64,000 nt of DNA from Trebouxia sp. TZW2008. Lineage: Eukaryota; Chlorophyta; Trebouxiophyceae; Trebouxiales; Trebouxiaceae. The stretch covers positions 121,096 to 185,095 of the forward strand of contig BDIU01000204.1 of assembly GCA_002118135.1 (NCBI GenBank), given 5' to 3'. The notes beneath the pieces are model-generated. The model was given only the letters and a program-made list of their open reading frames with translations. It was not told the origin of the DNA and searched no databases. Shown here piece after piece: positions 6,570 to 46,455 of this stretch. Made by a program: the position numbers and the translations under genes. Numbering within the stretch: position 1 is the first letter of the stretch; every line of letters starts with the position of its first letter.

Positions 6570-9500
6570 CTAAGGTTGTGACACAACAATACGCCAGCCT
6601 CTCTGCCTCATCTTGATGATCCTTGCAGTAACTTCATTTGGTGGCTTCAGTACAAGCAATCTCTTAGCCCTGATGTTCTCAACGACTTCATACAGTTGGC
6701 AGTTGCAACACTCATCCTCATGCCTCTTCAATGATAAGGTTCCAGAACTGTCCAATCTGAGGTTGTTCACATCAAAGTCTATCCTAGGATCGCGCTCAGC
6801 AAATGCAGCTGTGTCCACCACCTGCATTCATCAAACTGTTAGTCGTCGCAGTGTGTTTGTACTTAATCCATGGACTTGAGCCATCCCTAGTGTTGAATGG
6901 GTCCCAATCCTTGCATGCTTGCGAAGTTGCAAACAACATACAAAAAGGCTTTTTATGCTGGTGCAAATTGCTCAGCTGACAGCCCTGTGCAGACCTCTGC
7001 ACTTTTGCAAAGCTGCCAATTTGCACAGTTTCCTTTGGCAGGAGTTGGCCAGAAAGGCAAGCTCATGTTCCAGCAAGTTGTTACCTTGAGGTGCCTTTGC
7101 AAATCTATCTTTGCTGACAAGTACCACTTATTGTGGCACAAATCTCTACCTTTTACAGCTTTTGCAAACAATCAGGCTTACAAAACAGAAACATGTGCCA
7201 AGGGTAAGCTGCAGCAGAGAATGCTGCCTCTGCAAAGTTGCATCGGCACATTTATGCGACACTTTCCTGGTACAAAATGGGGTTGGCAATTGTCAATTTT
7301 AATGGGTTTTCAAGTACAGGGATGAGCTCATGCTCTGCGACATACATGTAGTTTGCAGCGCTGTCGTGATCAGGCTATGTAGATCAAGACAGCAGTGCAG
7401 CCGTCACACTAAAGCAAAGGTGCACATGCCAACACATCAAACCAAAAGTGCAGTTATAGTTCCTACCACATATTATCACACACATGATTGGCAATTGCTG
7501 GTATAGTGCAGGATCCTGATCACAAGACTTACAAGCAGATCAGAGAACAGTCATACCTGTACCTCCACCTCACTAGACTGATCAACAGTGGTGAAGAAAG
7601 CGATGCACACACGGCGATCCGCATTCATTTTGCGCTTCACCCGCATCTCCAACTGCTCTGCCACTTCTATGACAATTTCCATGCTTGCTGCAGCATCTGG
7701 CCCTCTCCAATGCACAGGCAGGCCTATGTCCAGATCCATGCCTTTTGGGGGATCGTTGCGCACAATCATGTCCCTGACGAAGCCGCCATACAGCCACAAA
7801 CCCAGGCCCTGGTTTGCAGATCGGAGTAATAGGCGGCTGGCAATGGCCATGAGGGAGCCCGCCACACCTCGGCCATACTGGGCATAAATGTTGTGGAGGA
7901 CGCCTCCCTGCACTGGCAACCATGTTATGTAACACCAGTGACTCACATGCACATGCACACGTACTGGGCATGTCAACTTCTGAAGTGGTTTGAGCTGTTG
8001 GCATTGTCATGCAATCCTTGTGTCCTGTTTATCAGGGATCAAAGGCAGAAAGAAAGCATGAATTGCAAGATCTGAAGCCTTGGCAGTTGCTGCTGTTTTG
8101 ACAGACCAAAGTCTTGTTGGCCTACAGCAACGGCATATGCTTGCAGAGGGTTATCTGCTAGAAATTGACATTTGCAAACAAGTGATGACTGAGCTTCAGA
8201 GTCAAACAAACCACAAGATTGTTTAGCAAGGACAGACATGACACGTGGTATGCTGATTAAAAAAAGCATACACATGATGCATGTGACAATTAGCAGCTCA
8301 CCATGATATGGCTCACAGCTTGATCAACAAAGTACATTGGGTCAGGTACTTCCTACAAGCACAATCACTTTGTGTTACTACAGCGTTCAATAACCATGAA
8401 GGCATGCAGCAGCTGTACTGGCCAACTTGCTGCACATGGTGTGCCTGACTGCAGGGTTATGCAATTGTGCACATCGCCAACGCACAGCAGGTTTTTGAAC
8501 AATGAAATGAAGCTCAAGGCGCTAAATCTAGCCAGGCTAGCTAGAGCATTGGGTTGTATGCAAATGCAGACATCAGCAAAATGCCATGAATCCCCACATG
8601 TACAGCAGCAGAACCAAAGCACAGAGATCGATGCATTACTTGCAGAGGTTGCATGCATAATCAAGCATGCCAGCGTGAATCATGTGCAAGTGCAATGTGA
8701 TGCTGATGTGCACAGCAGAGCATGCAGCAATCGTGTTTGAGGTCTGGCAAAGCCTGCTGGCTGTCCATGCAGTGTGCTGCTCTCACCACAAAAGCAGTAT
8801 CACGTGCGAACTCTTCATCTGAGCTAGTGTCTGAGTCAGACCACCCATCCATACATCGGCGGTTTGCTGTCATCAGCCATTCATACCGAACACTGCCAAC
8901 TCCTTGAAGAATCTGGCAGTCATCTGAACCCAGAAAGGCACCAAAGTATATCACGTGGCTGACTCTCTGGTTGTGAGGACTGCTGAACACGCTGTCTGGA
9001 GCTGCAAAGGCCAGATGGCGGTCTTCACTCAAGATGAACCCTTGGCTAGCATCATGGCAATCTACAGCATCTGCGCTCTGCATGACGAAGCCCATGCACA
9101 GCGATGCCATTATGTGATCCCAGTCCGCCCCATAGCTTCGGTTCGTTGATGGCATGATGTCATTGATTTCAGTGAGCATGCAATGAGCGGCTTCTAGGGT
9201 CTGAGGGGACACCCCAGCTCTTGCGCACCAGAACTCATCCTGGCCACTTGCTAGCCAGGCTTCATACACTTTCAGGTAGGTTTCTGGGTCTCCTGAGCTG
9301 TTTCGCAGGAAGCTGGAGCGACGGGAAGTTGAGTGAGGCTCAAAGAGATTGTCTCTGCCTTCTGATACTGTGTACACACATGCAATGACGGCCACCTCCC
9401 TGCTGCAGTCAGCGTCTTCAGCTGCTGCAATGCTTACCCCAAACTCCACTGACACAGGCAGCGCCTCCACTAACTCGCCCAGCGGTGACAATGTCAACAC

Positions 9501-12284
9501 AGGGTCGTCTAGGTTCTCAATGAGGCCCATAATCTCGAGGTAACGCAGGGCTTCCAGCCTGCAGGCAGCAGCATACTCTGTCAGCTGTACCCAGACACAA
9601 GCTTTGACAGAGCCATGTGCACCATGTGACTGTGTGGGCTGGACTAGGGAGAACAAGCAGGAAACTGCTCTTGGCTAGAGCACTTCTATGCATGAACCCA
9701 ATACTCACGCAACTCACTGCAGAGCAAGCATGGTCATGTTCACCAGATGCGGAAGTGCATTTCATCCTATGTTACACAAGGGTTGCGTGGAGCTGTGGAT
9801 GCTCTGCTATACATGCTGATGGATTGCTGGGAGGCATCCCACCTGTCTTCTCTCTCTGGAGAGTTTGCAGGCTCTGTTGCAGCGCTGACAGGCAGGCCTG
9901 AAGCAATCCAAGTCAACAAGTTTTTGTCCAGGTCTTGATCTTCGTTGCTACTGCTAGCAGAGGCAGACAGCTCTCTGCTATCTGGTCCACGCCGGCTGTA
10001 CTCCAGATCACATGACGCCTACAGAAATTATGATCTGCTGAGGAGTTACACGCTCTGCAACACCAGCTGCACTGCAATAAAGTGCGAGGTGGAGCTGCAT
10101 GCTGTCAGAGTATAGTGCAATGCTTTGCATACTAGACACAAAAGAACAACAGAGCTGTTCATGCCGAAAGCACAACATATGGCTCCTGTCACCATGCGCA
10201 TTGCACTATTTTGGTGTGCAGCTGAGCAAATATGCTTAGACATGCCTCATCAACACAACAGGTATGCTTGCATGCAGCAAGGCCGCCAATGCAGCAAGTG
10301 CAAGTAGTGTGTGCAGCACATCAACACTTACACCAACAAAGATGTGCCAAAACCCATGAATGCTGCTCAAGGACTGCTTGCACTTTTGATGCATATGAGC
10401 TGCAGATGAGCATACATGCCCACCTTCTAATTCATTGACAACTTGCGAACAATGATGGAGCTTGCAGGCGGGCTGTTTGTAAAACATGCACATACTTGTG
10501 TAGAGCAGTCATGCCCATGTGCCTGCACCAACTAAGTGCAATTTATACCGGCAACTTATGATGTAGGTCAAGATAGCAAAAGCGCACATGGAGAAGAGGT
10601 ACTGCCCTTGTGTTTAAACATGGCATGACTGCAAGGCTTTGACACAGACAATCTGCACCAGATGATCAATGAACACTGATACAATCTAAAGCACTGTGCA
10701 TGACTATGCTTACCACAGTGTTAGGCGTCCTGCATCCCTGGCAAGTGTCGCCAAAGTGTGCCACCACCTGTGTGTGCATCAGTCTTGAGCAACCTGTAAA
10801 TGCTATTCATTGCAATGTGCATCAAGCGGCTGCAAAGCTTTGCAAACATGATGCTTGAGCATGTATGTCTTTAGCAAGCGCCGCAGTACACAAACGCAAG
10901 TTGTGATTGTGCTTGGCTACAGTGAACACTTCTGTGCCAGCATACAAGTCATGTTGCATTGCATGCACGTGCTGCAGCTGCCGCATATGTGCTCTTGTCA
11001 GACAGATGTGCATTCAGGTGCAAGGTATGTCATGCATACTCTGGCTAGTGATGCACTCAAGTAGAGGCAACATTACCTGGGCGCCAGGTGTGTGCAGGCC
11101 CACTGTAGGGTATAGACAATGTTCATTCACATTGATGAAAGCCACTCCTAAGTTTTCATCATTCTTGAAGAAGGAGACTGTCTGAGCTTTTCTGTTCAGC
11201 AATGCACCAATCACATCACCTGTCAACAAGCATGCAAACTTACATGAATGTAACGGAAAAGTCTGTGCTTGCTGTGTTCAGAACCAAGGATGACTCAGTG
11301 AATTGTGGGCTAGCACGCTTGAGCACTCCAAATTTTTGGTAGCGCAGTTCTGTCCAACATTTGCTCTACCTGCTCAAAGACAGCAGAAAGTTGATGCTAA
11401 TGCTGTACTACTGCATGACTTACCACCTATCCCATGCACCTTGAATAGACTTGCCCTGTGGCTTGTTACAAATGGTCGTGACGAGCATTGCTAGACAGGA
11501 CGGCATGTCGTCACATACGCAGCCGAGTCATGGGTTGTCCACATGGCGTGTGCATTCAGCGTTGTCTGTAGGGCTCAGAAGCAGCATCAACAAGCTAGGG
11601 GCACTGTGAGGCAGTATGTCGACCTGTTGTGAAGGTAGGGCCATAAACACAGCCCATCGGCGTGTCTGCAAAAGCCTTGCCATCATCGCCGTGATATCCA
11701 TATGAGTGTTGGTCCCACCCCGGCATGCGATCCATTCTTGAGCCAGGTGCGCAAAAGCCAATGCCTGGCCCACAAAACAGGCACAGCTGATACTGTTGCT
11801 TGGCATCTCTTTGCTTCATAGCATTGTCACACTCTCATGTACACCCAACGGGATCCTGATGGCACGTGCTGAGGCCCCACAGCATGACCTCAAGGCCAAC
11901 CCAACAAGCTCTTGGCAGATGGAAAAGTTGCAGCTTTGCGTCGCCCAGTACTATGCTGCAGATATGCTGAGCTGCTTGTGCAGAAGAGTGTCCAGTAGTC
12001 ACAAAGTATGCACAATTTCATGTAGCAGCACAAAATGCAATGGCAACCTTGGACAAGCTTGTTGGCACGCGTACACGACTACGTATATATGGTTCCCCAG
12101 CCTGTCGCAATCATGTGAGGCTGTGCCACCCCTCAAGACAAGCTTGTTGGCAGAGAAAGCATACCTATGGCGCCACTTTGACCGCAGTCTACTATGCAAA
12201 CTTTGAAGTAATACTGGTTCACATTGCTAGGCACTGGCTGGTCTGTAGAAGCAGCGCCAACATCATGATTGCTGCGGCCCCGAC
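6570..12284 (-). CDS. SPRY - DEAH-helicase C-terminal (HA2/OB) - nucleotidyltransferase fusion
   Basis: Exons in coding order are 12284-12165, 11764-11624, 11219-11077, 10767-10714, 10018-9776, 9584-8787, 8352-8302, 7907-7557 and 6821-6570 (stop). All joins keep phase and use GT-AG signals. The first four exons form a SPRY domain: [50 protein letters not shown] and VAHFG, the order seen in RanBP9 and ASH2L-like SPRY. After an acidic, Ser-rich linker comes an HA2/OB region like DEAH helicases ([38 protein letters not shown]). The last two exons hold a class-II CCA/poly(A)-polymerase-like head: [22 protein letters not shown] (DxD) and [10 protein letters not shown]. No helicase motifs I-VI are present, so unwinding is not expected; the protein may bind RNA or a partner through SPRY and HA2/OB. 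The N-terminus is undefined; ankyrin exons 2.6 kb upstream may be part of it. It is paralogous to the gene at 21378-31459. Confidence 0.72.
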
Positions 12285-21377: not shown

Positions 21378-24300
21378 CTAAAAATTGACCGTCCATCCCC
21401 TGGCTTTCATTTTGTCAATTCTTGATGATACTTCCTGGACAGGTTTCAGAACAAACAAGGACTTTCCTCTGCAATTGCTGAGAATCTGGTCCTTGTCTCT
21501 GCCTGCAGCCTTGTCTTCTTCCTCACGCTTGATGTGAATTCCAGTACGGGTCATTTTCAGGTTGTTGACATCAAAGTCAACTCCTGGCTGCCTCTGTTCG
21601 AATGCTACTGTATCTACTATCTGCAAATGACACACCAGGTCATCTCAGGTGTCCAATTGTTGCAAGTTCATGAGCAACAGCCTATTGCATGTATGGTTGT
21701 ATGCATATGCATATGCAAGCATACATTATGTGCATGCATGCTTATGTCAGTGTGATCATTGCAGCTCCATTGCTCAATTGTGCAGTGTGCTGTGGTGTCA
21801 TTGGCTGCAGAAGTCGTTACCTGAACTTCAAATTCTGAAGACTTGTCAACAGTCCAAAAGAAGTTGGAACTGATCAGGGCGCCTGCGGGGACTGTCTTAG
21901 TGAACTCAATGCCCAGAGCCTGGGCGAGGTTTATGATTCTGCTTGCTCCCTCTTGCGGAGTCATGCTGCAGTCCTTGGGCAGCCCCACGTCTATGTCCAT
22001 CTCTTCATGCATGTCGTTGCGCATGACAGCATCTCTGACGAAGCCTCCATACACCCACATCTGTGTCTTTGACAGGATCTTGCGCACTAGGGCCACCATG
22101 GAGCCTCCCCGAGCTGTGCCGTATGTGGCAAATATCTGTGCTGTTGGTGCCTCCTGTGAGCAGCATATGCGTTGTAAAGAAGACTTTTTTGGATGCAGCC
22201 GCCTTGTCACAATGTGCAGTAGACATGCGATGTTCATCAGCAGGCAATGTTCTGCTACGTGATGTTGTAGTGATGGTCTGCTGCCATGTCTGTTTAATAT
22301 AATTGCCCCTGCAGCGCATTAAGACATATCGTTCAGCAAGCGCATCTTTGTCTTCACCCTGAGTCTTACTTTTGCGCTTGTGGTGGGTCTGCAAAGCAGA
22401 GTCTGCTGGTGTGCCCTGCCTACAGCATATCGGCAGTCTTGTATGCTAGAAGAGGACAAAGGGTCTAAGAAGTCATGGTCTGTTCTGATCTGACACTGCT
22501 GTCTTTCACAGACCAGTTGGCAAATTACAGGGGGAGCGGAAGGGCTCGTGAATCCCTGTTCTGAGCTGATGTCATGTCCTATAATCTGTACACCAATTGT
22601 AACTTTGAAGCACACTAGCAGCAATTACACACCAAACGCAGGATGTGTAAAGCACTTTCTGACTTAGTCTGTTTGACAGCACAGAGAGTACAGGGTTTAT
22701 GCAAGTCAGGGCTGCTGCCATCAGCTCGCAAGCAAGCTTGCAGTCCTTGATGGGGATCCCTTGCAAGATCAGACAGGCTCTGGCTGTTGCGTGAAAGCTT
22801 TGTAGCATGGTTGGGTGTGAGGCACTACTGCCATCACTTGCTGCATATTCTAGGACAGGTTGCTAACTGGAGCACTGATGACTGAAATCAAAGTGCGACT
22901 GCCCAACTGGTATCCTGCAATGCGCTTACAATGTTGAGCCACTTCATTGCAAAGACTCTTGTTGCAATGAAGTGGCCCACCTGCATTGCATCAGTTAGCA
23001 GTTGGTGCTGGGTTCTGAGTAATAAGCGGTTGGACCAGGGCTCTCATTGCAGCTGCTGATGAAACCAGATGCATGATTACCTACTTGGCTGCATTAACCA
23101 TGCCAGTGCTTGCCTCACAGATACAGCTCTCACAGAGCCCAAACTGCGACACGATGATACAGCAATTTTGCCCTCCACAGACCATACTAGCCAAGGCACA
23201 TGTTGGAGGGTGTTTTGATCACAGTGCTGGCCTCAATCACCGCGCTGCTGTCAGCCTCAACAAAGAGATGAACATGCTTTTGGGTGCTGCAAAGCAATGG
23301 CGAATGAGATGGCAGCTGGGGATGCAAATTGCTGGAAAGGACACCCACCAGAAGATCGTATACACACTGCTTCTCGTGAGGTGAGGGGTTTGCCTTGAAG
23401 CCAAAGGCTGGCACGTCCAGGCCCAGGCACTCACGCACTCGTCTCTCAACACCTGGCACAACCACTGCTAAGCTTGTAATGGTCATCACTCTCTTGGATG
23501 GGTCCACCACCAGACCAATGCACACCCCAAAGTCCTTGCTAAGTTGCTGGCGCAAGTCAGACAGGTGCTTAATGGCTGAGTGTCGAATGACAGCGCTGAC
23601 AGCAGACATGTCCACATCACAGCTCCCAATCTTGATGGACCTGGCTGCCTGCTGTAGCTTCTCTTCAACCAGGCGGCTTAAAGGGGCAGGGCAGGTAGAA
23701 ACAAGCTCAGTTGGGGTCCCTGATGCTGAGATGTTGGTTTTGAAGACGGCTAGTGGGAAGCTGACTTTCAGGTCCTTCACATTGCTGTGCAGCGCCAACA
23801 GGGCAGCATCGCGAAAGCTGCGATTCTGGGTTGCCTGTACCAAATTCAACGGTCTGAACAAAACAAAACAGAAACAAACAATAGCATAGTAGAATTTAGT
23901 GTCCAAGGTGTTGCTGAATTGGCTGGACAATGTTTTGTAGGTTGCCATCCAATTCTGTATCAAGATGCAACATTGCTTCAAAATAAGCATTTAAACTATT
24001 ACTGGCATGGATGGGAGCTTTTTCCATGAGCTTGCCATGCAGCAAGCGCCAATGTGCTGCTGTGATGTGTTGATGCGATTTGTTGTCTTGATGCAGATAT
24101 GACTGATGGACATGTAAATGATGATGTGTGTTGTTGTCAAGGGGGGTTCATGACAGTCACCACAGGTGTCATATGTGAGAGCATCTTTGCATGATGCCAA
24201 AAAACTGACCCCTTTCCGTTTTCCGGTGTTATCTGCAGATGAACAAAAGGGACATGCTGAAATCATGACGTGTGCAGTTGAATTCTAGCCGGTTGCAGAA

Positions 24301-27300
24301 AGCATATGGCAGGTAGTCAAGCACCTTGCAGGCTTGCTTTCATGATGTGTCCAGACAATCAGACAAGCTACAAGCATTACTGATTACTGCACTTGGCAGA
24401 CAAGCATGGCAGACAAAGATGGCAGATCAGCTGGGCATGAGACAATGACTCATCAAGGCTTTGCACAGTGCACGTGGTTTTGTAATCATTTTATTGTGTG
24501 GTTCTGCAGTGACTGAACACAAGGCCAAGAGGGAAGGTCGCATAAGCTGATGACAATGTGCGTGCAAATGTCAAACACCAGGTGCCTCACCAGGAAGTAA
24601 ACGAAAACCAATGACTGGCCCAATGAATGAATGAATGCATGCATAACTAAACAAGCATGTGAGCTGCCTGATCGACTGTACATCAGAGTATGACACTGTA
24701 CATGACACCATCATGCAAGAGGGCTGAGTGCAACATGCTGTGCTTTGACTTGCCTGTGACAGATTTTACCGGGACCTCGAAGCCCTTCTACAGTAAACGC
24801 TTGACTTGCGAACGGCAAGCATATGCATTGGGACATTTAGGCAATTGCACCTGTGACATCGCAATAGGCTTGCAGAAGCTTACAGGAGGGAAATGCTCGC
24901 TGACGTCTGCCTTGACAGTCACACAAGCCATGGCGCCAAGAGCTTGAGTGACTGCATCTACAGCTAGCCCTTGCCCCATACTGGCGTCCTCAATCCACCC
25001 ACGCTGCACTTTGCTGATGTTGGACACCACTCGGCTGCCATCGGCATGCTCTGTTTGGAAGGAAAACATCACCATGCCTGTGTTTGTCTGTCTGTACAGT
25101 GCAGAGCTCCTGTTCAGGGTGACGCTGGTGGGGTTCCTGTCATAGTTTTCCAGCAGCCAGAAGGCTGTCTTGCCGTTGCTGGGGTCAGCAGGCATGGCAG
25201 TTTGCGAGAAGTAGCCAGAGCACAAGGATTGCAGAACGGCTTCCTGTCTATCTTGTGGCGACCCAACGAATGCTTGCAGCGACAGCTTGTACTTCTGCAT
25301 GGAATTTTTGACCTTCTGCAGCATCTCATTGGCAATTTCCAGGGACCGCTGTGACAGCCCCTCCTTCTGGGACCAAGCACTGCTTCTCTGATGTCTGCCC
25401 CACGCTTCAAATACATTGAGGTAGGTGAGATGATCACCAGTGGGGTGGAGCAGGCTGTCCCCAGCTGCTCTCTTCGCTGTAAACAGTCTGTCGCCGCCTG
25501 CTGCTGCGACGCATGCAATGATTGCCACGTCCAGGCTACAGCGAAGAGATACGGCCTTCAAAATGCTGATACCCATTTCAATGCCAACCGGCATGCTGCT
25601 CAGAGCCAGCCCCACATTTGACACGGATGTCACACCAGTTGGGCTTTCTTGGATTGCCTTTAGTTTCAGCAAATGCTTGCGGGAGCGTTGCAGGCTGTCC
25701 CTGCATACCAGGGTGCAGAAGTGTAATGCAAAGCCAGAAACGCAAGATCAGCAGCAGGAGTTGCACAGGGGTGATGCAAGCCTAGCAGTAGTTGCAAATG
25801 GCAATCAAGCTCAAGAGTGGCATTGAAAAGCATACTCTTGCTCCAGGCAATTCCAGGTTGAACTTCGACTTGGACAGGGTAAAGTGCATTTGGCACGACT
25901 GCTGAGCACAACAGATGTTCTGCCATGGAGAAGTGCTGACAGACTGTAGCTGCTTTGGTATGGCGCAAGCAAGGCAGATTTGTAGTGCTACAGGTGCATG
26001 TGATTGGGCTGCAAATGGACCGTGCACAGCTCTACTTTACCTGCTCATGCAGAACTTGAGTCTAGCACCAGAAGCCAAAACCAACGCTCGCAATGACAAA
26101 AATGCATGATGCTAAGAACCTTGCAAAGGCATGTTTGAAATGTCAAGCACTCTTGCTGACAGCCCAGAGCGCAAATGCAGAGCTTTTGGTTTAGTAGGAG
26201 AAGAGTCTTTGGACACTCAGTGCAGCCTGAGTAGTCTCCAAATGTACGCTGCCCAATGTGCCCATGCTGCCCGATTGTGTCATGCATCCAGCAACTGTGG
26301 CAAACAGTGCAAAGTGCATGTCATTCAAGCCAGCAGGCAAGCAGGCTGCACCTGAGCTTTTCCTCGCCCATGTCAAGGGGCTTGTGCCCGTCGCCCCCTG
26401 CCAAGGGGTCCATGCCAGTTGCAATCATGCCCAGCAAAAAGCCGTCCAGGTTGGTTTTGAGCACTTCGGGCTGGCTGTACTCCTCAAATGAGCTGTTGAA
26501 GCAGTCTTCTGTGTACATAGTGTAGCAGGTGCCGGGCTGTGTGCGACCTGCTCTGCCCTTGCGTTGCACCTGAGACGCTTTTGAGATACGGGTCTGCTTC
26601 ATGGAGGTGACTCTGGTGGCAGGGTCGTATGATTGCTCCAACTGGAAACCAGTCTCCAGCACCGCAGAGATGCCTGACACACACAACATGGCCTGAGCAA
26701 GAGTGATGCAACCTAAAATAAAAGAAAACAAAACAAGCATCAGTCAGAAAATGGAAATGGGGAAAAAAGTCAAGTCAGATCAAATTGATACAACACAGTC
26801 AAGTATGTCATGAAGTGTGACTTGAAATCATTGAGATGGCAGGGGCAAGAGGAGAAACAAGAGTCCAAGACTGCTGTTGCATGTTTACAGCAGTGCCTAC
26901 ACAATCCACATTGGTACCATGTCATCAATTTTGATTGTATCACTGTGTGGTTGCTGTACACAGCATATGTATGCATGTCAAGGAGGGTTGAACGCAGCTT
27001 ATGACCATATCAAAGGAGCCTGCCTGATGTGAAGTCTCCAATGTTGCACGCTTGTGACCTGACATGCACATTATATTGCTTGTTGCAGTTGCTAGCAGAA
27101 CACTGTGATGGATGAGCTGCATAGCAGCATCAGTTGATTCAAGTGCATCACACAAGTGGCGGTGCATGCAAAAGCTTGCAGAGCCCTCTGCTTAGTGTAG
27201 CACAGAACATTAGGAGCTGGCCCAGGTGGCTGGGCAGCTGTCACAGGCAGGTGGAATGGCGTGGTGACAATTTGGGACTTTGTACTTAACAGCAAACAGG

Positions 27301-30300
27301 GTGAGCAGCAGCTATATATACCTACATGCAGCTTGCAGATCCTAGAAGCCCAACAGGGCAGGGATTGTTGGAAACGCATCATCACAACAAGTCAAGCAAT
27401 GTCGCAAGGCTAGCTCTGGGCAGCAAAAGAGGCCATCAGACTGCTTCTTGTGTGAGCTGCATTTCAATGAGCAGGCCATAGAGCGGGACTCGCACATGTT
27501 TTGATTAAACAGAAAGGCATATATGCAAATAAGACAATCAGACAAAAACAGATTTTTTGCGTGAAATGTAAATACAAGTATTCATTTCTCAGGCCAAGAA
27601 CTTGAGAAGGGTACTTATCTTGCAGGTTTGCTTGATAGACCCAAATAGCGCTGCAGGCCACGCATGACTGCAAATGGAAGTGCACTGCAACCTGGACTTG
27701 ACTATGGGGTTGCACTGGACTTTGCTCACTAATGAGGAGTTGAGAGATGACCTGGAATGGTGATTCCTGCCTCTGCCACATTGGTGGACACGCAGATGAG
27801 GCGCTTGCCCTTGTTCTTGGGGTCCTTGCTGAAGTTGGTCACCTCATCACGCTCTGCCTTGTTCAGGGCCGCATACAGTGGCAACACTTGACACTGGGGG
27901 TCGTGCACCATCATGCCCCTGATGCTCTGCACTAGCTCCCATACAGCCCCAGTAGTGCTGACAAAGATCAATACATTGCCTTTCTCCTGTAGATACACCC
28001 ATATGGCCTCCAGGGCCAGTTCTGTCAGCGCTGAGTCATCCTTGGGGTCCCAGGGCTTGCGCGCGGCATCATACCACACATTCTTCACAGGAAAGGTGAC
28101 GCCGGGAATGTCAATGACGGACAGCTCACCGGGGACTTGGTTATCCCGCAGGTTGTCCACAAACACAGAGGGGGCTATGGTGGCTGACATGATGACAGCT
28201 TTGAAGTCTGGGCGAGCTTTACAGGCTGCAACAATTTTCAGCATCAGCTCGTCAGCCCCTATCTTGCGCTCGTGTGCTTCATCCAGAATGATGCCGTCCC
28301 ACTTGGAGAAGCTCGGGTCGCTGCTGATGACGGCTTGGAAGAAGCCGTAGGTCATGAAGACAATTCTGGACTCAGGTGTGATGAAGACAGTCCCCGCTAT
28401 GCCCAGACCCACCTCTCTGCCAACTGTTGTGTCCCTCATTTCGCTGACATGCTTGGCCAGCCCCTCGGCAATGGCGCGTCTGGGGACCAGAACAGCAATT
28501 GGCTGCTGGGAACGGCCCTGGGGCGTGAAGTCATCCATCATCCACTGGGGCACCATGACAGACTTGCCTGCACATGGCGCCTGGAAGCACATGAGTCATG
28601 CTTGACATGCATGAGCACCTCAAAGGTAGAGACACACAGCAGCTGCGTCATGCCTGACATGCATGAGAAGCTTCACAGCATGGCTCTGGGGGCTGATGTC
28701 ATGCATCTGAAATTGTATGTCAAGCAAGCGTGCAGGGACCCAAATCCAGATCTGTGCAGTATATCATGTACAACACTGTTGTGCCTGTTGCACGAGCAGG
28801 CTTTGACGCGCCCGATGACTGCAAGTGCCTACTGTGCAACTGCTGTGCATGAAGTCTGCTGGTGCTGAGACCTGTGGTATAGCATGTTCAGAGTGAGAGA
28901 CATCATCAGAATATCACCCCAAGATGTCATGAGCCTCAAAAAACTTCATGAACAGTCACATAATGTGGCAGCATTGAATAAGTACATTACACCTAGCATA
29001 AAAGCCTGCAAGGCAGTGAGGTTGAGGCTTACCAATACCTGTGCCCCCTTTGAGCACAACGCATTTGGATCTGTGAAGAAGCTCAAGAAACTCCTGTTTG
29101 CGGGCATACACAGGTAGTGCTGTCTTGAACTGCATGTGCTCCACTTGAAACTTCTTGCTGCTGTCAGCTAGCTGAGCGATGGTTGCCAAAGGCAAGACTT
29201 GGATGCGCTCGCAGAAATAGTCAACCATGCCAATGCGGGCCTCGGTTGCCTGCATGCAACACACTTGTTGTCATTTGCTCACTCACTTTGGGAGGTGCAT
29301 GATCTTGGCTCAAACAGGAGTGCCCTAAGGCAGATGGTGGTGGATGCATGATGGAAGCAATGACCTGAAAGGCAAGCTGCCACTGACCCAAATACAAAGC
29401 GGTTGCATCTTATGCAAACTTGCTCTGATCTCAGCATGCTTTCTGTTGCTGCCAGCTGCCAAGCTGGCCAGTGCACATACAAGACCACATGTCAAGCTGA
29501 ACGGCGCAGAGACTGTCGAACATGTGCAGCAAAATTTAAACTTCAGTGATGCACATGTCAGGCACAGCTTTACAGCATGCAGGCCGACCTGCAGCTTGAG
29601 CTTGCGCTGCTTCTCTGCGACCTGCCACTCAAGTTCCAGCTTGTTCCTCTCGACTGCCAGCTGCTGATGTAAGGTAGGGTCAGGGCCAAAGCTGACCACA
29701 TGAGTCACACAAACTGAGTCTGGGTGGAAAAGCACCAGGTAGTGGGTGCTCATGTCTGCAGAAGAATGATAGCCGGCTTTGAACAGGCTGGCTGCTGTGT
29801 CAGATTGCCTCAAGTTTTTGCTCTTGATGTTGCCTTGGAGGGCATTGCAAATACAGACTGCCCCATCATGATCAGCATAATCGCGGGCAATGTCATGATC
29901 GACCTTGGCAACAGCATAGAACCCATGACCAAATCGGTGCCCATTAGCTGAGCCAATCATACTGAAGTCTGGGCCGGATCGGGCAATGTTGTTGCCGTTT
30001 GCCACTGGATTGGTCCCATGCAGTACCTGCAGCACCATGAGAGAAGGGTATTGAAGGGTGGCTGCTGCACACAAGCACGACTGTCTGTATCAAATGGAGT
30101 CCATACCACAACTGTCCAGAATACACCTCAATATGATGTGAACAAAATGTTTCACTACACATAAGCTCTCATCAACATCAGATAAGCTTGCGGCAGCATG
30201 CATCAACATGGCTGCTTGTGCAGTGTCTAGGTCTGCTTCTGTTTGAGCAGGGTCTGGACCTATGATCATCAGGTTGAAAGCCCATTGCTCTACCTACTGA

Positions 30301-31459
30301 GCAAGGCTGCACCCTATCACAGCATAGGCATGTGCTGCAAAAACAGCATCAACACTTGCAAATGTTGCAGAAGCAGGCAAGGCCCTTGCATTGCATAGGC
30401 TGTGTGTGCTGCTGCTTTGCAGCCAGGTGCAAAAGAGCAAAAGAAGCCCTCAGGAGAGTAGATACAGACAGCTGCTTGCGCCTGTACATGCTTGACATGT
30501 GGCTCCAGCTACCAAAGTATGCTGAAGCCTGGAAACTGTACCCAACTAGTCAGTTGAGGAGCACTGAGGTGAGCCTCAGTCAGCTCACCGTCGTGACTTG
30601 CTTGAACTGCTGATCCAATGTACAGCGCCAAGCATCAAATCTGGCTTGTCTGGCAGATACTGCAACCTTCTTGACAGACACTGGCTGCTCCTGGAACAGC
30701 GATGCAAAACGTTTGAACTCCCGAGAGGTGGGGTCCAGGGCAATCAGGTCTGAAGGCACTTTTGGGTCCTTGAAGGGAGGCGTCTCCACCTGCAGCCTGG
30801 TGATGTCAGTGCGCAATGCTCGCTGCTCTGATTGAGCTGCCTTTTTGGCAGCAGCAATATCTTGCTGCAGGTTGAAATTGGGATTCAGTGCCTGGCTCTG
30901 TGCCTGAGAAGTCACATTGGGGCTTGGTGTCTGGCGTTGTGCCACTGGATGTCGATGACCCTGTCTAGGTTGATAAGGTGCAGAGTTGGGAGATAGCGTA
31001 GGTCGTGGCTGTCCATAGCTAGGTGATGGTGTCTGGGGTGCAAATGAGGGGCCTGGTGGGGAAGCTGGACTGCTATGAGGCTGGGCACTAGACTGATGTG
31101 CTTGGTCGCTTTTGAGGAAGGCTTGCACAGGTGTAGCAGGCGTGTAGTAAATGGTTGAGGTCAGATTATGTAGTTGAGCTGCAGCTGCACGCGCAAGCGT
31201 GCTGACGTTGAAGTTGAGATAAAGGAATTGACCCTGATTAGCTTGTCCGATAGGAGGCACGAATGCAATACTTCGTGCCGATAGCTGCTGCTCAAGCTCA
31301 GCGCGCGGAATACCCGTTACAACCTGCAAAAAGTTTCATGCACGCATTATCGCGACTAGTGTGCGCTAGCAGCTTGTTGCAGGATGCTGCCAGGGTCATC
31401 TCTGCGATATTGCTTACCACTGTGCAGTCGCTGGGATACTTTCTAGACGCTGGTTTCAT
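21378..31459 (-). CDS. RRM-like - PARP - DEAH helicase - nucleotidyltransferase fusion
   Basis: Ten exons, phase-consistent throughout: 31459-31418, 31323-30589, 30026-29589, 29249-29033, 28567-27752, 26673-26352, 25700-24884, 23834 to about 23223, 22153-21821 and 21620-21378 (stop), about 1,520 residues. ATG 31459 opens a 14-codon exon spliced to VVTGIPRAELEQQLSARS, an RRM-like start; a Pro/Gln/Ser-rich linker follows. Residues about 215-375 form a PARP catalytic domain (VSVKKVAVSARQARFDAW; LHGTNP; GHRFGHGFYAVA; YHSSADMSTHYLVLF): His and Tyr of the triad are present and the Glu position appears to be His, as in mono-ADP-ribosyltransferases or inactive members. The DEAH helicase has P-loop GGTGIGKS (completed across an intron), ILDEAHER, MSATI, STNVAEAGITIPG and QRKGRAGRTQPG, then HA2/OB (GDHLTYLNVFEAW). 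Exon 8 is unassigned. The end carries [15 protein letters not shown] and DFDVNNLKM, a CCA/poly(A)-polymerase-like head. Likely RNA-directed; the exon 8 donor is the weakest join. Confidence 0.82.
30244..30314 (-). other. Degenerate tRNA-like or tRNA-derived SINE sequence
   Basis: On the minus strand this reads GGGTGCAGCC, then a canonical A-box region TTGCTCAGTAGGTAGAGC, an anticodon-arm-like GGGCTTTCAACC and a B-box-like GGTCCAGACCC at normal tRNA spacing. The acceptor and T stems do not pair well, so it is not a functional tRNA. It lies inside an intron (30027-30588) of the PARP-helicase gene. It is either a decayed tRNA gene or the head of a tRNA-derived SINE. Confidence 0.45.
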
Positions 31460-31791: not shown

Positions 31792-34700
31792 CCCTTTCCT
31801 TATATGTAGTGTACACTTCATGGTACTCTAGATTCCCCGGCAGCGGCCACCGCGCATAGCCGATGTGAACTCAGCGACGCGTTGAGTCCGATTCGCACTC
31901 AGCGTGACGTAACGGCGCGTGGCACAGTTAGTCACGTCGTTGCGGACTTAAATCGCCTAAGTGCTTTGCTTTGCAGTCAACGACCTGAAGTGCTGATGCA
32001 GCTTGAGCTCGCGCTATGCAGATACAGGACGTCGCTCAACGAACAAGCTCATATTTACACACTGTTGAGGATAGTAGAATTGTTCACACTGCAGTGGGCA
32101 CTCCAGGTACTCAGCTAGCATCTGCCTGAACATGATTTGCTCTTTCAGCTATAGGAGTCAGACAAGCTTGCTTGTTCTTTGGTTTGAGGCAGTTCTTGCA
32201 GAAACCGCATCTCCGCACTCTGAGTTGTCTTGATGGTCTGTGTGGCTCTGCTTGCTTGCTGACTGCAGCTTCAGGACCAGCACTGTCAAGTACAGCAGAA
32301 GTGACAGTGTTGGGTCCTACGCTAGCAGCCTGAGCAGCAGTATTAGCAGCAGGTCTGGCAGAGGCAGCAGGAATGCTGGCAGCAGCATTGCTGTTCTCCT
32401 TGTCATCCTGTTTGCTGCTGCTGAGCAGCTGAGCAAAGCTACGCTTCTTCCTAGAAGGCTGAGGCTTTGGTAGGGGCGCTACAGGGGGCAGTGAGCTGAC
32501 ATCTACTCTTGCTGCTGCTGCTTTTGATTTACGCTGCCCTTTGGTGAGCCCTTCCAATGCTGACTTCAGCCTTACAGTACTGTCATTGAGGCCGTCCTGC
32601 ACCTTCCCAATGGCTTGAGCTGGCTGGCTGAGACCAGCTAGGCTGCGGCTTGCCAGCTGCTGGAAAGAGCCTTCTGCCTGGTTGAGCTTGTTGAGCAGGA
32701 TGTTGCGCAAGTCAGCATTGCCTCTGGAGTGGTCAAGGAGCTTGTTGAATTGAGCTAGCATGTCAGCATCGCTTGTTTTGCTGAGCTGTGACACTGAAGG
32801 ACCAGCACTGGCAAGCTGCATGCTGGTGGTGCAAGCTGCGCCCTGTTCATGCTGTTGGGCTTCATGCTCAAGCTGCAAGTTCTCTGTCAGCTGTGTCCAG
32901 CTGTCAAGCTCTGGCTGTGCATCTGTGTCACTGCGTTGCAAGAGACGCTGCATGCCGCCCCGGCTGCTACCTGCCCATGTTCCCAGGAACAATACTATAT
33001 CCTGCTTTTTGCAGCCACTGAGCTGAGCAATGACCTTCACTCTATGCTTGCAAAAGTAGCCCAGGGCGCCTTGAGGGCAGCTGCAGCTGGCTGTCTCTGT
33101 GCATGCACCTGTCACCCTGTACTGAATGCTCTGTTCCTGCTGACTCTTGACCAGAGCAGGCTGTCCAGCCTCTGTTGGCAATGTGACATGCGCATCAGGG
33201 ATTCGCTCTGCAGCTATGACAGCATTAGTGACTATCTGCTCTTGCTTTCGGTTGCGAGTGAAGCCGCTGACCTTGGACTGCTGACTGCATATGATCCTGA
33301 GCTCAAACTGCATCAGACACAAACCCTTTGAACGCTGTCCTTATTGACACCAAAGAGCAGCTAGGACTGAGCAGGGTTGACGATGTGCAACCCAATGCAT
33401 ACACAGCAAAACAGTGCAGGCAAAGCTGAGTCACCATTTTGCAAATGAATGATGCAGTTGCAGTATGTTGCAGACTCTGACTGAACAATGTTGCCAGCTG
33501 CTGACCTTTTCACACAGTGCATATAGCAGCCAGTCCAAGCGCCTGTTGCTGAGCCGCCGCCTGTCTGCCAGCCCGACTCCTTTCAGGGCAGAATGGAACC
33601 CTTCACATGCACCAGTGGTGTCCTGCTGAGAATGAGGAGCTGTCCTGAAACCTCGGACCCATTGCACTGCAAAGGCAGAACACTTTCAGCAAGACTTCAT
33701 GCTTGTGCTGATGTACACATGCAGCAAAATTGCACATGCAAGCTGATTGATCAGACGTCCAGTCCTACATGTATAGGCCATTGAAACAGAAATTTCAGCT
33801 TGCAGGGTTTGACACTTGTTGCTGCAATGCAACAAACTGCAATTGCCTAAACGTGAAGGCATTTATCACTCTCAATGACATTTCACAGCATGCCCAGAAA
33901 TCAGCAAAATGCCACTCAAAGGTCTGAGCCAGCATGACTTACTCAGCTTGACATCTGTGCCCCATTGAGACCGAAAGTAGTCCACAAAGGCCTTCTGCTC
34001 AGCAAAGTCTGTGTAAAGCTGCTCCATGCATCGCTTGACCCTGTGCAGGAAGGCTGCATCTGACTCATCATGATGCTTCAGCATAGCCGTGACCTGACCC
34101 AAGCGGTCAAATATGGCTTTGGGCAGCCCACGCCCGCACTTTGCTAGCAGGTTCTTCAACCAAGCCCGCTTGACATGCCAATGACAAAGATAGACAGGGA
34201 AGTTCTTGCCATACAACTCCCTGCAGCCAATAGGCAACGTGAGGTTGTTGCTGTAAACACAATATCATACTGACCAATCTGATCAATCAGCAGATTCAGG
34301 TGCAGCACGTCATGCATGACATGCAGCAGAATTTTGGCAGGTGTGTAGGTCAGGCGTGACAATATGAACAGGTGCATGCCCATTTCAATGAACAGCTTCA
34401 GGGACTGAAAGTGTGGAGGATGCTGTCAGAATGGTAGTCTACTTGCAACGCTTGAAGACACAAGGGCAAGCTTACTTGATGGCGTTGATCTCAGCCTAAG
34501 CAGCGTCCACCATGAAGCAGCTGGGCTGAAACCCAGGATGAGCTTTCTGCATGCTGGCCTGCCACGCTTTGAAAAGCCGAAGCATTTTGGCCTCTGATGT
34601 GCAGTAGGTCAACGCATGGAATATTGGCAGCCCATTTCCAAACTCATCAATTGCCAACCCAGTGTAGAGTGACAGCTTGTTGGAGTTGGTGCCAAATGTA

Positions 34701-36022
34701 GCATTGCACAGAGCCACATCATCATTGGCATGGTCTATGGCATTCTGCACCATTCTTGGTGTGCTGAAACCTAGCTGAAAGCTGTCGTCAGGTGGCTCTG
34801 TTGCACTGTCAGGCTGATCATCGTCCTGAGCTGCATTGAAGACGGGTTTGCCTGACCTGTGCTCTTGATACATCCAGACCCAGTCAGCATGCTCAAGCAC
34901 CCATGCTCTGAGTGACGTTGCCACATCTGCATTATAACGCCATGTCTGCTGCTCCAGATGCTGAATAATGTTCCTGATGTCCTGAGCCTGTGATCTCAGC
35001 ATCTCTACCAAAAAGCTCCTTGTTCTGTTTTTTAGCTTGGAGGTCTCCTAAAATCTGAGAAGGCATCAAGCCAAGCTGGGCAAGGCTGAGCACTAGCTGC
35101 CTGGCAAATCTGGACAGATCAGGCGCTTCATGCCTACGGCTTTGTGCATGATCTGCATCAGGCCCATGTACTTGCTGGTGGTCTGCGTTGCAATGATCCA
35201 TTGATTGCAGTGAGACACGCACAGCCCAAGGCCATAGTGCATACTGCAGGATGTGGATCTGGAACAAACAGCCAAGCTTGCAGCCATCCTCCCTGGCGCA
35301 TTTTGACTTTCTGCTGCCAGCTGGCCGTTCCTGCTGCGGCAGGAGGTCAGGTTTCTGATGGCTGTCAGCTAGCTTTTGACTGCGATAGCCACTGAAGGAG
35401 CACTGCAGATCAAGTTTGACTAGGAATGAGTTCTTCTGCACATGTGGTATGTCAGCTGCGCTGCTTCTTGACTTTTGTTGATTGGCTGTCGTGAAGTCTG
35501 TGTTGTATAGATCAGCCTCACCTGCGTTGTCAAGCTGCTGTCAAGGCTTGATCTTTACTGAAATAGCAGAGACTTGGAGCTTAGCTTACCACCAATGAAA
35601 TCGTTGACATACTCTGTGCGTAGAAATGCCTCCTGATACTCAGGCTTTTTCCCATAGCTGCTGACGCGAGTCTGCCACTGTATGTCGTCGCGACTGACAA
35701 AATTTAAACCTGTCTGATCGTTTTTGCGTCGCGCGGGGGCTTGCAGCTCGTGCTCAAAAGGTACTGACTGTGCTTCAAGCTCTGCCGGCCAAGTTGCGAA
35801 AACAATCTCTTTCTTCATCGACGCGCTGCGAGCTCTGCAAGTTGTCGCAGAAGGAGTAGCGCTTCTTGTTCAAAGCTTGTTAGTAATGTCGGCAAGTCTT
35901 GCGTGACTAAGAGCTTAGCGTAGAACTCAGCGCAGCTTGAGTTGAGCGCGACCGCGGAGTCGGTGCGGTCGTCGGTGGAAATCTAGAATACCATGAAGTG
36001 TACACTACATATAAGGAAAGGG
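31792..36022. mobile_element. MULE (Mutator-like) DNA transposon, 4.2 kb
   Basis: Near-identical terminal inverted repeats bound the element. The left end, CCCTTTCCTTATATGTAGTG at 31792, continues ACACTTCATGGTA and TCTAGATT; the right end at 36022 is its complement with one mismatch in about 42 bases. A perfect 9-bp direct repeat TTAGTCATG flanks it (31783-31791 and 36023-36031), the Mutator-type target duplication length. A minus-strand transposase gene fills the interior. The near-identical ends indicate recent activity. It sits about 320 bp upstream of the start of the PARP-helicase gene, in its probable promoter region. Confidence 0.93.
32111..35818 (-). pseudogene. MULE transposase with SWIM zinc finger, disrupted
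   Basis: The start is ATG 35818; the first intron joins 35818 to about 35591 with an exon from about 35529 by GT-AG. The second exon has a Cys-containing DNA-binding-like N-terminus (KCAREDGCKLGCLFQI). The catalytic region reads ALCNATFGTNSNKLSLYTGL, where the usual first Asp is Asn, and SCFMVDAA. Further exons give YLCHWHVKRAWLKNL, then the SWIM finger CSCPQGALGYFCKHR (CxCxnCxH), a long Ser/Ala/Gln-rich stretch, and a C-terminal Cys cluster CGFCKNCLKPKNKQAC recalling half of a CXXC finger. A frameshift lies at the A5 run 35010-35014 (one base lost or gained restores ELLVEMLRSQAQ), and a TAG at 34496-34498 interrupts VDAA and AEINAIK. Either the copy is dead and mobilised in trans, or these are assembly errors. 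The family assignment is firm from the SWIM motif and the ends. Confidence 0.85.
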
Positions 36023-40831: not shown

Positions 40832-43800
40832 CTACATGATCACCAATTTGATCCCTGGCACAGCATTGCAGATACCACGTAGGTGGTCAAGCAAGGGTTC
40901 TGTCTCTGTGCTACCTGGGAGGCTCACCACAATGGCCCCAAAGGCATCAATGTCATACTTGGGTTTTTGAAAGAAGGCTGGAGTCACATAGATTGTGCGT
41001 GAGTGTGCCGAGACCACGACATTGCCAGGCTTGACCAGCCCCACCTCCTCGCCTAGCTGGCACCCTTTTGCCTCGCACAGTTTTGACGCTGCAGCTTCCA
41101 CCGCCGCTGGATCCATCACCATCAGCACGTGCTGGGCATCTCTGCTTTTGTCCTTGTAATAGTCTGCACACATTATGTAGCATCATGTCTGCTGCCTGCA
41201 TGCATCCATGCAGGTGCATGGTGTCTGATGCACCCGTGCAAATGATCTGGATGAGATCTGTTGTTGCTGTCTGTACCAGTCCTTGGAAGGTTATATAATG
41301 CGCAAGGGGAGTGGATAAAACAGCGCAAGCAAGCCAGAAGGCAAACAGCTTTCACTCTGTGTCAGAATATGACATGAGCCAATCAGATGATGGACAGCTG
41401 TGTGAAAGTTGAGGCAATGAGTCAGCAACATGGGCAGAAGGCACAACAGTGGCATGACAATGACTCCACTACAATTGCCTTCATATTGTGTATATGCGTT
41501 GAGGAATTTCTGACGGATTGCACAGCATGCAACTTGCATAGTTTCTGACTGCAAAGATGATGAAAGCAAAACTCACCCGGCTCAGCGCAGCTGTTGAGAA
41601 CAAGGGGTTGTTGATGATGCAGTGACTCTGGGAGCTTGGCCCTGTCTGAAGTTGGTGCACTCAGTATGGTATCTGTAAAGCTCTCACTGCTTGCAGCTGA
41701 CTCATGGGCATATGGCTCGTGGTTTGAGGGAAGTCCTCCAGTGAGCTGCATCAGCGCACACTGTCAGCACAGCAAAGCCAGGGAGCAGGCACAGACAGCT
41801 GCAGCATCACATGGACAATCACCATGATGACGTTGAGAAAGCATGCACAGTGATGCATGCGCCAACATGGCATTATGCAGTCAGCAAAAGGGAGCATCAG
41901 CGCAGAAGGCAGAACACAAACCAAAAACAGAAAACAAATAAAGGAGTCAGTTGGTTTTCAGGAATACAAGCAGTCTTTGCATGCAGGCTGACACATATCT
42001 TGCAATGCAACTGATGCATGCACAGGCATTCAGCATCAGTCATCAGCAGACTGGAGGCAATCCCATACCTGCTCCTCGCCTTGAGGCACAGGGTGAATTG
42101 CTTTGGGCAGCTTGGCAGGGTCCCCTTCTGCTTGCCAAGCATAGCTGGTTTTGCCAGCAGCCAAGTGGGCACCAACATTGGCAGCATTCTCTTCAACATC
42201 CTCTTCAGTTGCGACAGGAGAAGCTCTATGGATGTGGGCAGGTGCTTGGGAGGTGAGGGGAGGCGTGTGAGGATTAGCTGCTTCATAGGCAAGGTTTGCT
42301 GCGCTGTCTGTGAAAAATTGTGAAGGGGTGGTGTCTTGGGGCTGCGCCTGCTTACCACTGAAAGGTGCTCTGTTTACTGGTCCAGGTTTGCCGGAAAATG
42401 GCTGTGCAAAAGTAGCAGCCTGAGGAGCATTCAGAGATGTTGTGCGCCCTGCGTTGAAGGCTGTAGGCATGAAGTGGCCAGGGGCCACAGGGGCGGCATG
42501 AGGGGCTGCCAGGGGCCCTGATGCAGATTCAACATGCTCTACCTGAGGCTGAGGTGTAGCTGTTGGTGCTTTGCTTTTGGCAAGAGCACCTGCTGGTCTG
42601 ACAAGGGCTGTTGTGTTGGTGACACTGGATGAGGGTTGGCCACCAGACGTCATGCGAGGCTGAACAGCAGTAGGCAAGCTGCTGGCAGGACCTGATGTTG
42701 GCACCTTGGCCAGTGTTGGAGTCACAGACTCCACAGCTGGCGTCTGACCATGTGGGCTTGCTATGTGCGTCTGGACCCAACTTTGAATGCCTGATCACAA
42801 CACATGACTGAACACAACACACGGACGAAGAAACAGCGCTCAATCTGGCAGACAACAGATGGTGCTTTCTATGGGCGTGATCCTGGCTCATGCACCTGAA
42901 TGTCAGGTTTGTGAACAAGAAGTAAGGCAGACAGCAGATGTGCTGAACAGGATCAGAGACTTGAAACAAACCTGCAAGACAGGACCCGCCTGATTTTGGC
43001 AGTGGCGTTTGCGCCACAGGGCCAGATCCATGGTGAATGGCAGCTGTCACCCATTCTTGCAGGGGCGCACACTCAGAAACAACTTTAGCCAAAAATGGGC
43101 TCAGCTGCGACTGTTTAGCTGCTATGACGTGCCGAGGGTGCACTTTGAACCATTCCAGAGCCTGCATTTCCTGCTGTGCAACTGGCAAGCTCTTCCAAGC
43201 CGCACCTGTGCGGAACTTGGCGAAACGAGGGCCAATGGTGTCAAACTGCTTGGTGGCTGCTGATCGTAGGGACTGCGACTGGGGAGTGCTGTCTGGGAGG
43301 GTGGCAATGTCAAGAACATACAGTGCATACATGGAATTGGTGCTGGCACCACAGACCCAGATAACGCTGGCATACGGCATCAAGGACACCAAGAGTGCCC
43401 CTGCTGCCTCTGGCTCTAGCTGGTAAGCTGTTTCCTCGTTGAACTCTCGAGAAGCTGTCAACTGTGAGCCTTCTCCAAACTCGTGTTTGCCGCCAAGCAG
43501 TGTCAGCCGTCCAGCCTCCCGACCCAACAAAACCTCAACGAGGCCACTGGCAGAGCGCTTTGCACAGAGCAGTCCAGCAGACTTGAAGTATGTCTCATCC
43601 ACTGGCCTCAGCTGCTTAGCACAGTAAGGGGCTTGACTGACCTGCTGTTTGTTCAAACTGCTTTTCAAAATAGCTCTGGAGGTGATGTGCTTGTACAGGT
43701 GCCGGGTGAGGGTGCTACTGTTGTAACTCCTCACAGCATCAGATGCTGCTGCATGCGTGGCAAAATTGAAGTAGACCAGCGGAAGCCGTGCTACTATCTG

Positions 43801-44333
43801 GATCGCATTGCAGAAGTCGTCTGTTTGCTTCCAGTCTTCAATCTGCTGCGCCACATCACTTGCAATCAGGGAGCCAGCCTCCACCACCACAGTAAAGCTG
43901 TTTGGAAGCTGATTACTTGAGAGCGGCTGGACTGGTTTGCCGCCTGCTGCTGTTGCATTTCCGTGCCGAGGAGGGCCAGCATGCTTGATTGACGCTGACA
44001 TTCCGGCAGCACTGGCCGAGAAGCTGTTGAGCTTGGTGTTCGCTGCATCAGCTGCTTCAGGAGATGCGAAATTACAGAACAGCTTGTTGTAGCTCTCTCC
44101 TATAGAACCTTGAACAGGTAGATGCAAGACGCTGACAAGCTGGTGCAGCACTTCAGGTTCGACTCCTTGTACGACCTGCAGTTGGGTCCCACCTCAAGCA
44201 ACCAATTGCAAGCGGTGTGGCTGCTTCCCGAAAAGCTCTTACCACTGTGCAATCGGCTGAAAACATTGCAGACGCGGACATCGTCCAGTTCTTCAAGCCT
44301 AGTCTTGTTTGCTGCAGATAGCTGGATTGCCAT
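40832..44333 (-). CDS. RRM-like - Nudix - degenerate DEAH-helicase fragment protein
   Basis: Five exons in phase: 44333-44243, 44099-42972, 42790-42069, 41745-41577 and 41163-40832 (stop), 813 residues. The start ATG gives MAIQLSAANKTRLEELDD. The first 250 residues hold two RRM-like segments (KLFCNFASPEAADAANTKL; VYFNFATHAAASDAV). Then a Nudix hydrolase domain: GLLCAKRSASGLVEVLLGR leads into the box GGKHEFGEGSQLTASREF with NEETA, an exact fit to Gx5Ex7REUxEExG up to the last Gly, which is Ala. Nudix enzymes cleave nucleoside diphosphate-linked compounds such as ADP-ribose or RNA caps; the substrate is not predictable here. A Pro/Ala/Ser-rich linker follows. The last 110 residues align with RecA1 of the PARP-DEAH gene (HVLMVMDPAAVEAA; GLVKPGNVVVSAHSRTIYVT; GIKLVIM), but the P-loop is absent, DEAH is replaced by SLPG, and the protein stops just before motif III. 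The helicase part must be inactive. Confidence 0.82.
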
Positions 44334-45540: not shown

Positions 45541-46455
45541 TGCTACGCTGACGCCTGCTCAAGGGTCGTCCACTTTCTAGTGTGCTGACTCTTGGTCGCA
45601 CTGAGGCTCCACCTGCCAAGGATAAGACGCCTATGCCTCCTTCAACTTCAGCTCCTTCATCTTCAGCGCCTCTTGGTGACATGACCTCACTGCCTATGGG
45701 CACTACTTCATCTGCGCTACCTTTATCATCAGCGCCTTTGTTTGTTGCTGCTGATGATAGTGCTGGTCTCAGGCGCTTGTTGCCTAAACCTGAGAAGTTT
45801 GCCAAGTTCTCTGCTGATTATAATTTCATGCTTTGGCTGACTAGCCTTCCGGGCTCAGGATTCCCTGTATCTTGTTGAGCTATTATTGCCAGCTGCTCCC
45901 TTGACCAAGCGCCTCTGCGTCTTTGGCAATCTCATAAGGCTCAGTTGCTTGCCGATGGCAACAATGATGTCTACAAGTGGGACTACTTCAAGCAATGGCA
46001 TCATACTCAGCGTGCCATTGAGCAACATCATGAGCTGCGCCAAGTTGACTCTGTTGCTGACTACAAGGCTGAGTATGATGCTCTTATTGCACAAACTTCA
46101 TTGCCTATGGAGGCACGCTTGTTCTTCTGGCATCGTGGTCTCAAGCCTCATATCATGGCTGCATGCACCCTTGATTCAGCCACTCACACCTGTTTCAGAG
46201 ATACTCAAGGCTGCTCTGGCCACAGACTCATTTGACCGCAAGTCTACCAGTAGCAAGGATGGGCTTGACTACAGCCAAAATGCTGATAAGGACCATCGTG
46301 CTGATGACTGTGATGGTGAGCACATTCACTACGCACCTGCTGATGAATAGCGCCATTCTGGTCGCAAACGCAAATGTTACAAATGTGGCAAGCCTGGGCA
46401 TATTGCAACAGATTGCCCACAACATGCACAAGCGCCAACTGATGCTGCATGACCT
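45541..46455 (+). pseudogene. LTR-retrotransposon gag remnant with CCHC zinc knuckle
   Basis: Plus-strand pieces in several frames form a decayed gag. They are KPEKFAKFSADYNFMLWL (near 45787), LRLWQSHKAQLLADGNNDVY, WHHTQRAIEQHHELRQ, SVADYKAEYDALIAQT and MEARLFFWHRGLKPHIMAAC, the usual capsid helices of Ty3/gypsy-like gag, and finally CYKCGKPGHIATDCP, a textbook CCHC zinc knuckle (Cx2Cx4Hx4C) that packages element RNA. Frame changes near 45870 and 45935 and a TAG before the knuckle break the gene. No protease, reverse transcriptase or integrase motifs follow, so the pol part is deleted. The LTR-like repeats just downstream support a collapsed element. Confidence 0.75.

Follow-up and report, generated by a model that had tools for sequence, protein, structure and literature searches.

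A predicted green algal protein with RRM-like, PARP-like, DEAH helicase and nucleotidyltransferase parts, an enzyme set that recurs in another order in rotifer proteins

Three kinds of described protein are among the closest to the gene analysed here, a predicted ten-exon gene in a window of 64,000 nucleotides from Trebouxia sp. TZW2008 (contig BDIU01000204.1, C196 in our numbering, from a genome of 68.5 Mb in 527 contigs). Prp43/DHX15-type DEAH RNA helicases are alike in their RecA motifs and in the profile match given below, whereas the algal helicase is fused to other domains and lies on a long branch in the tree. Class II CCA-adding enzymes and TENT5/FAM46 poly(A) polymerases are alike in the GGFVRD and DxD motifs, and in fold they resemble the nucleotidyltransferase head of related rotifer-type proteins; the algal head differs from them in stopping soon after a neck-like motif, in the replacement of its third aligned acid and in an RRDFT counterpart that is at most partial. 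The RRM-bearing mono-ADP-ribosyltransferases PARP10 and PARP14 likewise pair an RRM-like part with a PARP-like domain that lacks the catalytic glutamate; neither is known to carry a helicase or a nucleotidyltransferase. Excerpts of PMC6582358 describe PARP10, PARP11, PARP15 and TRPT1 as modifying phosphorylated RNA ends in vitro and place NUDT16 among the enzymes removing the mark, and a later paper, PMC9458441, reports ADP-ribosylation of RNA ends in human cells. The literature searched held no description of a PARP, helicase and nucleotidyltransferase set, and the word helicase occurs zero times in the main text of a survey of PARPs across life (PMC4245714).

All coordinates are window positions unless another contig is named, and the main gene lies on the minus strand. 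Its ten exons (31459-21378) join in phase into a single frame of 1537 residues whose sole stop is terminal, in agreement with the preliminary description of this stretch:

Exon 1, 31418..31459, minus strand: start codon and first 14 residues; 42 nucleotides, followed by a GT donor.
Exon 2, 30589..31323, minus strand: most of the RRM-like segment (residues 6-74), a Pro/Gln-rich linker and the N-terminal part of the PARP-like domain (about residues 211-259).
Exon 3, 29589..30026, minus strand: PARP-like core with HGT (H262), GHGFY (Y296) and, in the third position of the triad, H354; a charged helix follows.
Exon 4, 29033..29249, minus strand: link to the helicase and first half of Walker A.
Exon 5, 27752..28567, minus strand: DEAH helicase RecA1 and part of RecA2, motifs I-V.
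Exon 6, 26352..26712, minus strand: remainder of RecA2, with motif VI QRKGRAGR.
Exon 7, 24884..25700, minus strand: HA2/OB-like region of a DEAH/RHA helicase, assigned from the Prp43 profile match.
Exon 8, 23223..23834, minus strand: linker kept in copies A and B (below), to which no known domain is assigned; either 23223 or 23364 may be its last position.
Exon 9, 21821..22153, minus strand: predicted nucleotidyltransferase head with GGFVRD and DID.
Exon 10, 21378..21620, minus strand: end of the head with DFDVNNL, RIDKMKARGW and the stop; DUF5769 match at an expectation value (E) of 4.8e-05, below its cut-off.

The four joins on which the predicted fusion depended (30589/30026, 29033/28567, 24884/23834 and 23223/22153) all work in translation. 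For example, 29033/28567 mends a Walker A motif that the intron splits, restoring GGTGIGKS; an alternative acceptor at 28579 keeps the frame open with Walker A broken. At the end of exon 8, the alternative donor 23364 also leaves the frame open and gives 1490 residues. Residues 1304-1346 are doubtful, because the aligned exon 8 of copies A and B ends within about eight columns of 23364 and the segment is just 19-28% alike between copies.

Copies A and B lie head to tail on another contig of the same genome (C179, 22.9 kb) and keep the order PARP-like, helicase, nucleotidyltransferase. The first exon of copy B, with its ATG, is 42 nucleotides long as in the main gene and encodes similar residues. 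Introns were compared with a purpose-written spliced aligner guided by the main protein, a procedure possibly biased towards main-protein boundaries. In all three copies, four introns share both column and phase: one inside the PARP-like domain, one in Walker A, one ahead of the HA2 part and one inside the head. For a fifth, from PARP to helicase, the main gene and copy B coincide and copy A is two columns off. As a control, the flanks of these five shared introns were translated and compared without gaps; the exon-side flanks average 38% identity and the intron-side flanks 8% (30 values per side). Since copies A and B keep the domain order and the flanks are conserved on the exon side and not on the intron side, the exon joining of the main gene is more than chance.

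Two or three neighbouring genes in constant order would be an alternative to a fusion. An exon 4 methionine could start a helicase frame, and ungapped exon-side identity is low at the PARP-helicase join (0-35%), where the copy A donor is displaced. Ungapped exon-side identity is also low before the HA2 join (0-25%). Gapped identity between copies, however, reaches 30-37% over the final 30 residues of exon 3 and 33-48% across exon 4, the introns match in column and phase as described, no stop interrupts the spliced frame from one part to the next, and single deposited proteins, one of them labelled a transcript, hold the same set elsewhere. Separate genes are therefore very improbable, and a single gene with predicted RRM-like, PARP-like, DEAH helicase and nucleotidyltransferase head domains is accepted with high confidence.

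The helicase is clearly of the Prp43/DHX15-type DEAH/RHA class, judged from its motifs and profiles. In a scan of the whole main protein, the Pfam models for DEAD (1.2e-12) and Helicase_C (2.2e-09) both match over cut-off, and the motifs reported earlier as complete are indeed intact: GGTGIGKS (I), DEAH (II), SAT (III), STNVAEAGITI (V) and QRKGRAGR (VI). In addition, the profile match to Prp43 (1e-80) spans positions 436-1100, which includes the HA2/OB-like C-terminal region; the Pfam HA2 and OB models themselves gave no match in the main protein.

The RRM-like, PARP-like and nucleotidyltransferase calls of the main copy rest on profiles, models and motifs, with Pfam scores not over cut-off. 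In the PARP-like part, H262 (HGT) and Y296 (GxGxY) represent the histidine and tyrosine of the triad, kept in all three copies, and profile comparisons match the region to rotifer PARPs; the PARP call for the main gene is a remote one. In the head, GGxxRD and DxD (GGFVRD and DID in the main copy) are kept in all four algal copies, each of which ends with an RGW motif and a stop within 4 to 7 codons. By eye, DFDVNN stands at a place similar to that of RRDFTxNA in CCA enzymes, without the RR, the programs not having aligned the two. Overall, the likeness of the head is to CCA-adding enzymes of class II and to TENT5. The earlier proposal of one protein uniting RRM-like, PARP-like, DEAH and CCA/poly(A)-polymerase-like parts is thus supported, with profile-profile and fold comparisons in favour of both the PARP and the nucleotidyltransferase identity, the PARP fold itself being tentative.

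The same enzyme set appears in deposited proteins. A database search with the algal head region returned one protein, P0015, at E 6.9, not significant alone, whose parts are ankyrin, helicase, head and PARP. Searching with the head and PARP of P0015 yielded 72 proteins among 2162 candidates, P0015 included; the head motif is present in 69, and the remaining three are PARP14- or tankyrase-like proteins without it. The 69 comprise 56 with bdelloid rotifer names (Rotaria, Adineta, Didymodactylos), 12 nameless proteins and P0082, labelled EG_transcript_144 (EukProt) and presumably from Euglena gracilis. By motif, the helicase lies upstream of the head in 68 of the 69 and a PARP signature downstream in 45, every one of which has the PARP glutamate; in the other 24 no such signature follows the head, which for some reflects an early end of the protein. 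Between algal and deposited nucleotidyltransferases homology is clear (3.2e-21). The deposited proteins (those of the three rotifer genera, the metagenomic P0015 and P0016, and P0082) thus hold the same three enzyme parts, many with ankyrin repeats, and place the PARP at the C-terminus, glutamate-bearing in the 45 with a signature, whereas the algal PARP-like part is N-terminal and a stop follows the head in all four copies. Pfam on the full length of P0015, P0082 and P0025 found no RRM-like or NUDIX part.

The set is thus already in databases, in another order. The preliminary description knew of no protein with this arrangement, and this holds for the order alone: PARP, helicase and head in that sequence, and the NUDIX-bearing form of copy B, were found in this genome only, the prokaryote and viral collections scanned being unlikely to hold algal relatives. 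The combination itself is not confined to this genome, the rotifer and other proteins holding the three parts with PARP at the C-terminus.

In a helicase tree of 31 rows, three algal sequences form one clade and 11 rotifer-type sequences another, and the two are joined against other DEAH rows at 76/85, a value that is not strong and is accompanied by a long-branch warning from the tree program; algal and rotifer-type helicases perhaps share descent. The heads have common descent, which is not shown for the PARPs. For the algal order, a permutation and a separate assembly both stand as readings. Giant-virus nucleotidyltransferases form a further point of likeness: all four algal heads match DUF5769, at E 2.1e-04 in the best case, and so do 11 of 12 rotifer-type heads, at 3.1e-05 in the best case. 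Foldseek with a rotifer-type head model (mf85748a7d5e5) gave 15 viral hits with E no higher than 0.001, 11 to named giant viruses and 4 nameless. Because of these viral model matches and the DUF5769 likeness held in common, giant viruses may have had a part in the history of the head.

Related elements are also present elsewhere in the genome. Copy B carries a NUDIX domain (Pfam 1.3e-06, over cut-off) between its RRM-like and PARP-like parts; a single open frame covers this domain and the beginning of the PARP-like region. Two further relatives lie in the window on the same strand as the main gene:

Copy C, 6588..9545, minus strand: HA2/OB-like part and nucleotidyltransferase.
Gene D, 40833..44193, minus strand: two RRM-like units; a NUDIX-like domain, matched by Pfam at E 0.0073; and, at 41182-40833, the remnant of a helicase RecA1.

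For copy C, tblastn gave no RecA or PARP part. An ankyrin repeat stands upstream of it (15522-15394, minus strand, Pfam 2.5e-08), as in many rotifer proteins, and may belong to copy C. The NUDIX-like domain of gene D is 40% identical to the copy B NUDIX over the aligned stretch, and its helicase remnant lacks DEAH. Between the main gene and gene D lie transposase-like pieces (32112-35047, minus strand) with a SWIM zinc finger (Pfam 4.9e-04), a MULE match and a ZSWIM RNaseH-like part whose score (1.1e-05) stays below cut-off, and an open reading frame at 45879-46235 on the plus strand looks retrotransposon gag-like by eye. The chlorophyll a/b-binding family has 47 matches in the genome, including one of CP26 type at E 2.8e-60 against solved CP26, which puts the genome in the photosynthetic green lineage.

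Whether the product of the gene, about 1500 residues long, is a multi-enzyme that handles RNA ends is, in our judgement, an even call, and a function at RNA ends falls somewhat short of that. In such an enzyme, the RRM-like unit would bind RNA, the helicase would open or feed the RNA end, the head would add, or would once have added, nucleotides at the 3' end, and the PARP-like domain would attach a single ADP-ribose either to the phosphate of the RNA end or to a partner protein; trimming of that ADP-ribose could fall to the NUDIX domain in copy B. The finding of the same parts in rotifer proteins suggests that they work together. More speculatively, and with considerable doubt, the proteins may form an unnamed class, spread over green algae, bdelloid rotifers and probably Euglena, whose members would each unwind RNA, tail its 3' end and write ADP-ribose on it, one algal form also trimming the mark through NUDIX; the algal form would then be a circular permutation in which head-to-tail gene copies brought PARP from the last position to the first.

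Several observations weigh against an active multi-enzyme. The catalytic glutamate is replaced in all three PARP-like copies (H354 in the main copy, R in A and B), so the algal part would be at most mono-ADP-ribosyltransferase-like. In the PARP tree, algal PARPs sit on a very long branch separate from rotifer PARPs, and the Pfam PARP model (PF00644), searched against the genome, hits nine places, none in these genes. Failure of the PARP or nucleotidyltransferase hidden Markov models had been named at the outset as refuting the proposed protein, and it occurs by half: PF00644 gives the main copy no match over the family cut-off but matches two of the three copies (best 9.9e-05), and PolyA_pol, in three of four copies, does no better than 0.027. 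In the head, the third aligned acid is lost in all four algal copies (EVQ, versus EVD in the genome's CCA enzyme), rotifer-type heads reach the CCA enzyme at E 0.022 only, and Foldseek alone, with the modelled head against PDB, gave no match at E 0.001 or better. Copy A (L009, that is C179:1-10000, at 2765-9691, plus strand) has degenerate helicase motifs (DDAH, SAH, RRRSLAGRN) in aligned exons that are still open. Because residues at catalytic positions are replaced, the PARP-like part and the head are putative enzymes only. These replacements, with the degraded motifs of copy A and the DEAH-less remnant of gene D, would suit a scaffold or sensor in which the helicase alone works and the other two parts, non-catalytic, bind NAD-like or nucleotide ligands or partners. 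Mono-ADP-ribosyltransferases without the glutamate are nevertheless known, and the retained PARP histidine and tyrosine and the DxD pair of the head speak for activity; we regard a scaffold as doubtful.

A stress or genome-repair enzyme, whose PARP-like part would mark proteins or DNA at damage while its helicase would remodel nucleic acid and its head would serve as a nucleotide-binding or DNA-end part, is unlikely. Relatives are many-copied in bdelloid rotifers, and the available text of PMC10809525 reports 17 PARP genes of Adineta vaga raised after radiation and 9 after rehydration, without stating their domain forms. The rotifer family may act in DNA repair instead, a further point against an RNA-end role. 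For bdelloid DNA repair genes, the available text of PMC6264785 gives PARP1 in four copies and does not mention the helicase-nucleotidyltransferase-PARP set. Set against repair are a helicase of the Prp43 RNA type, a head closest to RNA-tailing enzymes and RRM-like units that point to RNA.

For the RNA-end multi-enzyme, the assortment of parts is itself informative. A PARP-like part, an RNA helicase, a tailing-type head and an RRM-like unit, with NUDIX added in copy B, are what would be expected if writing, tailing and erasing share one RNA end. Because the set recurs in rotifers in another order, a joint function is more likely than a chance fusion, and the rotifers that carry it are laboratory organisms in which such a function could be tested.
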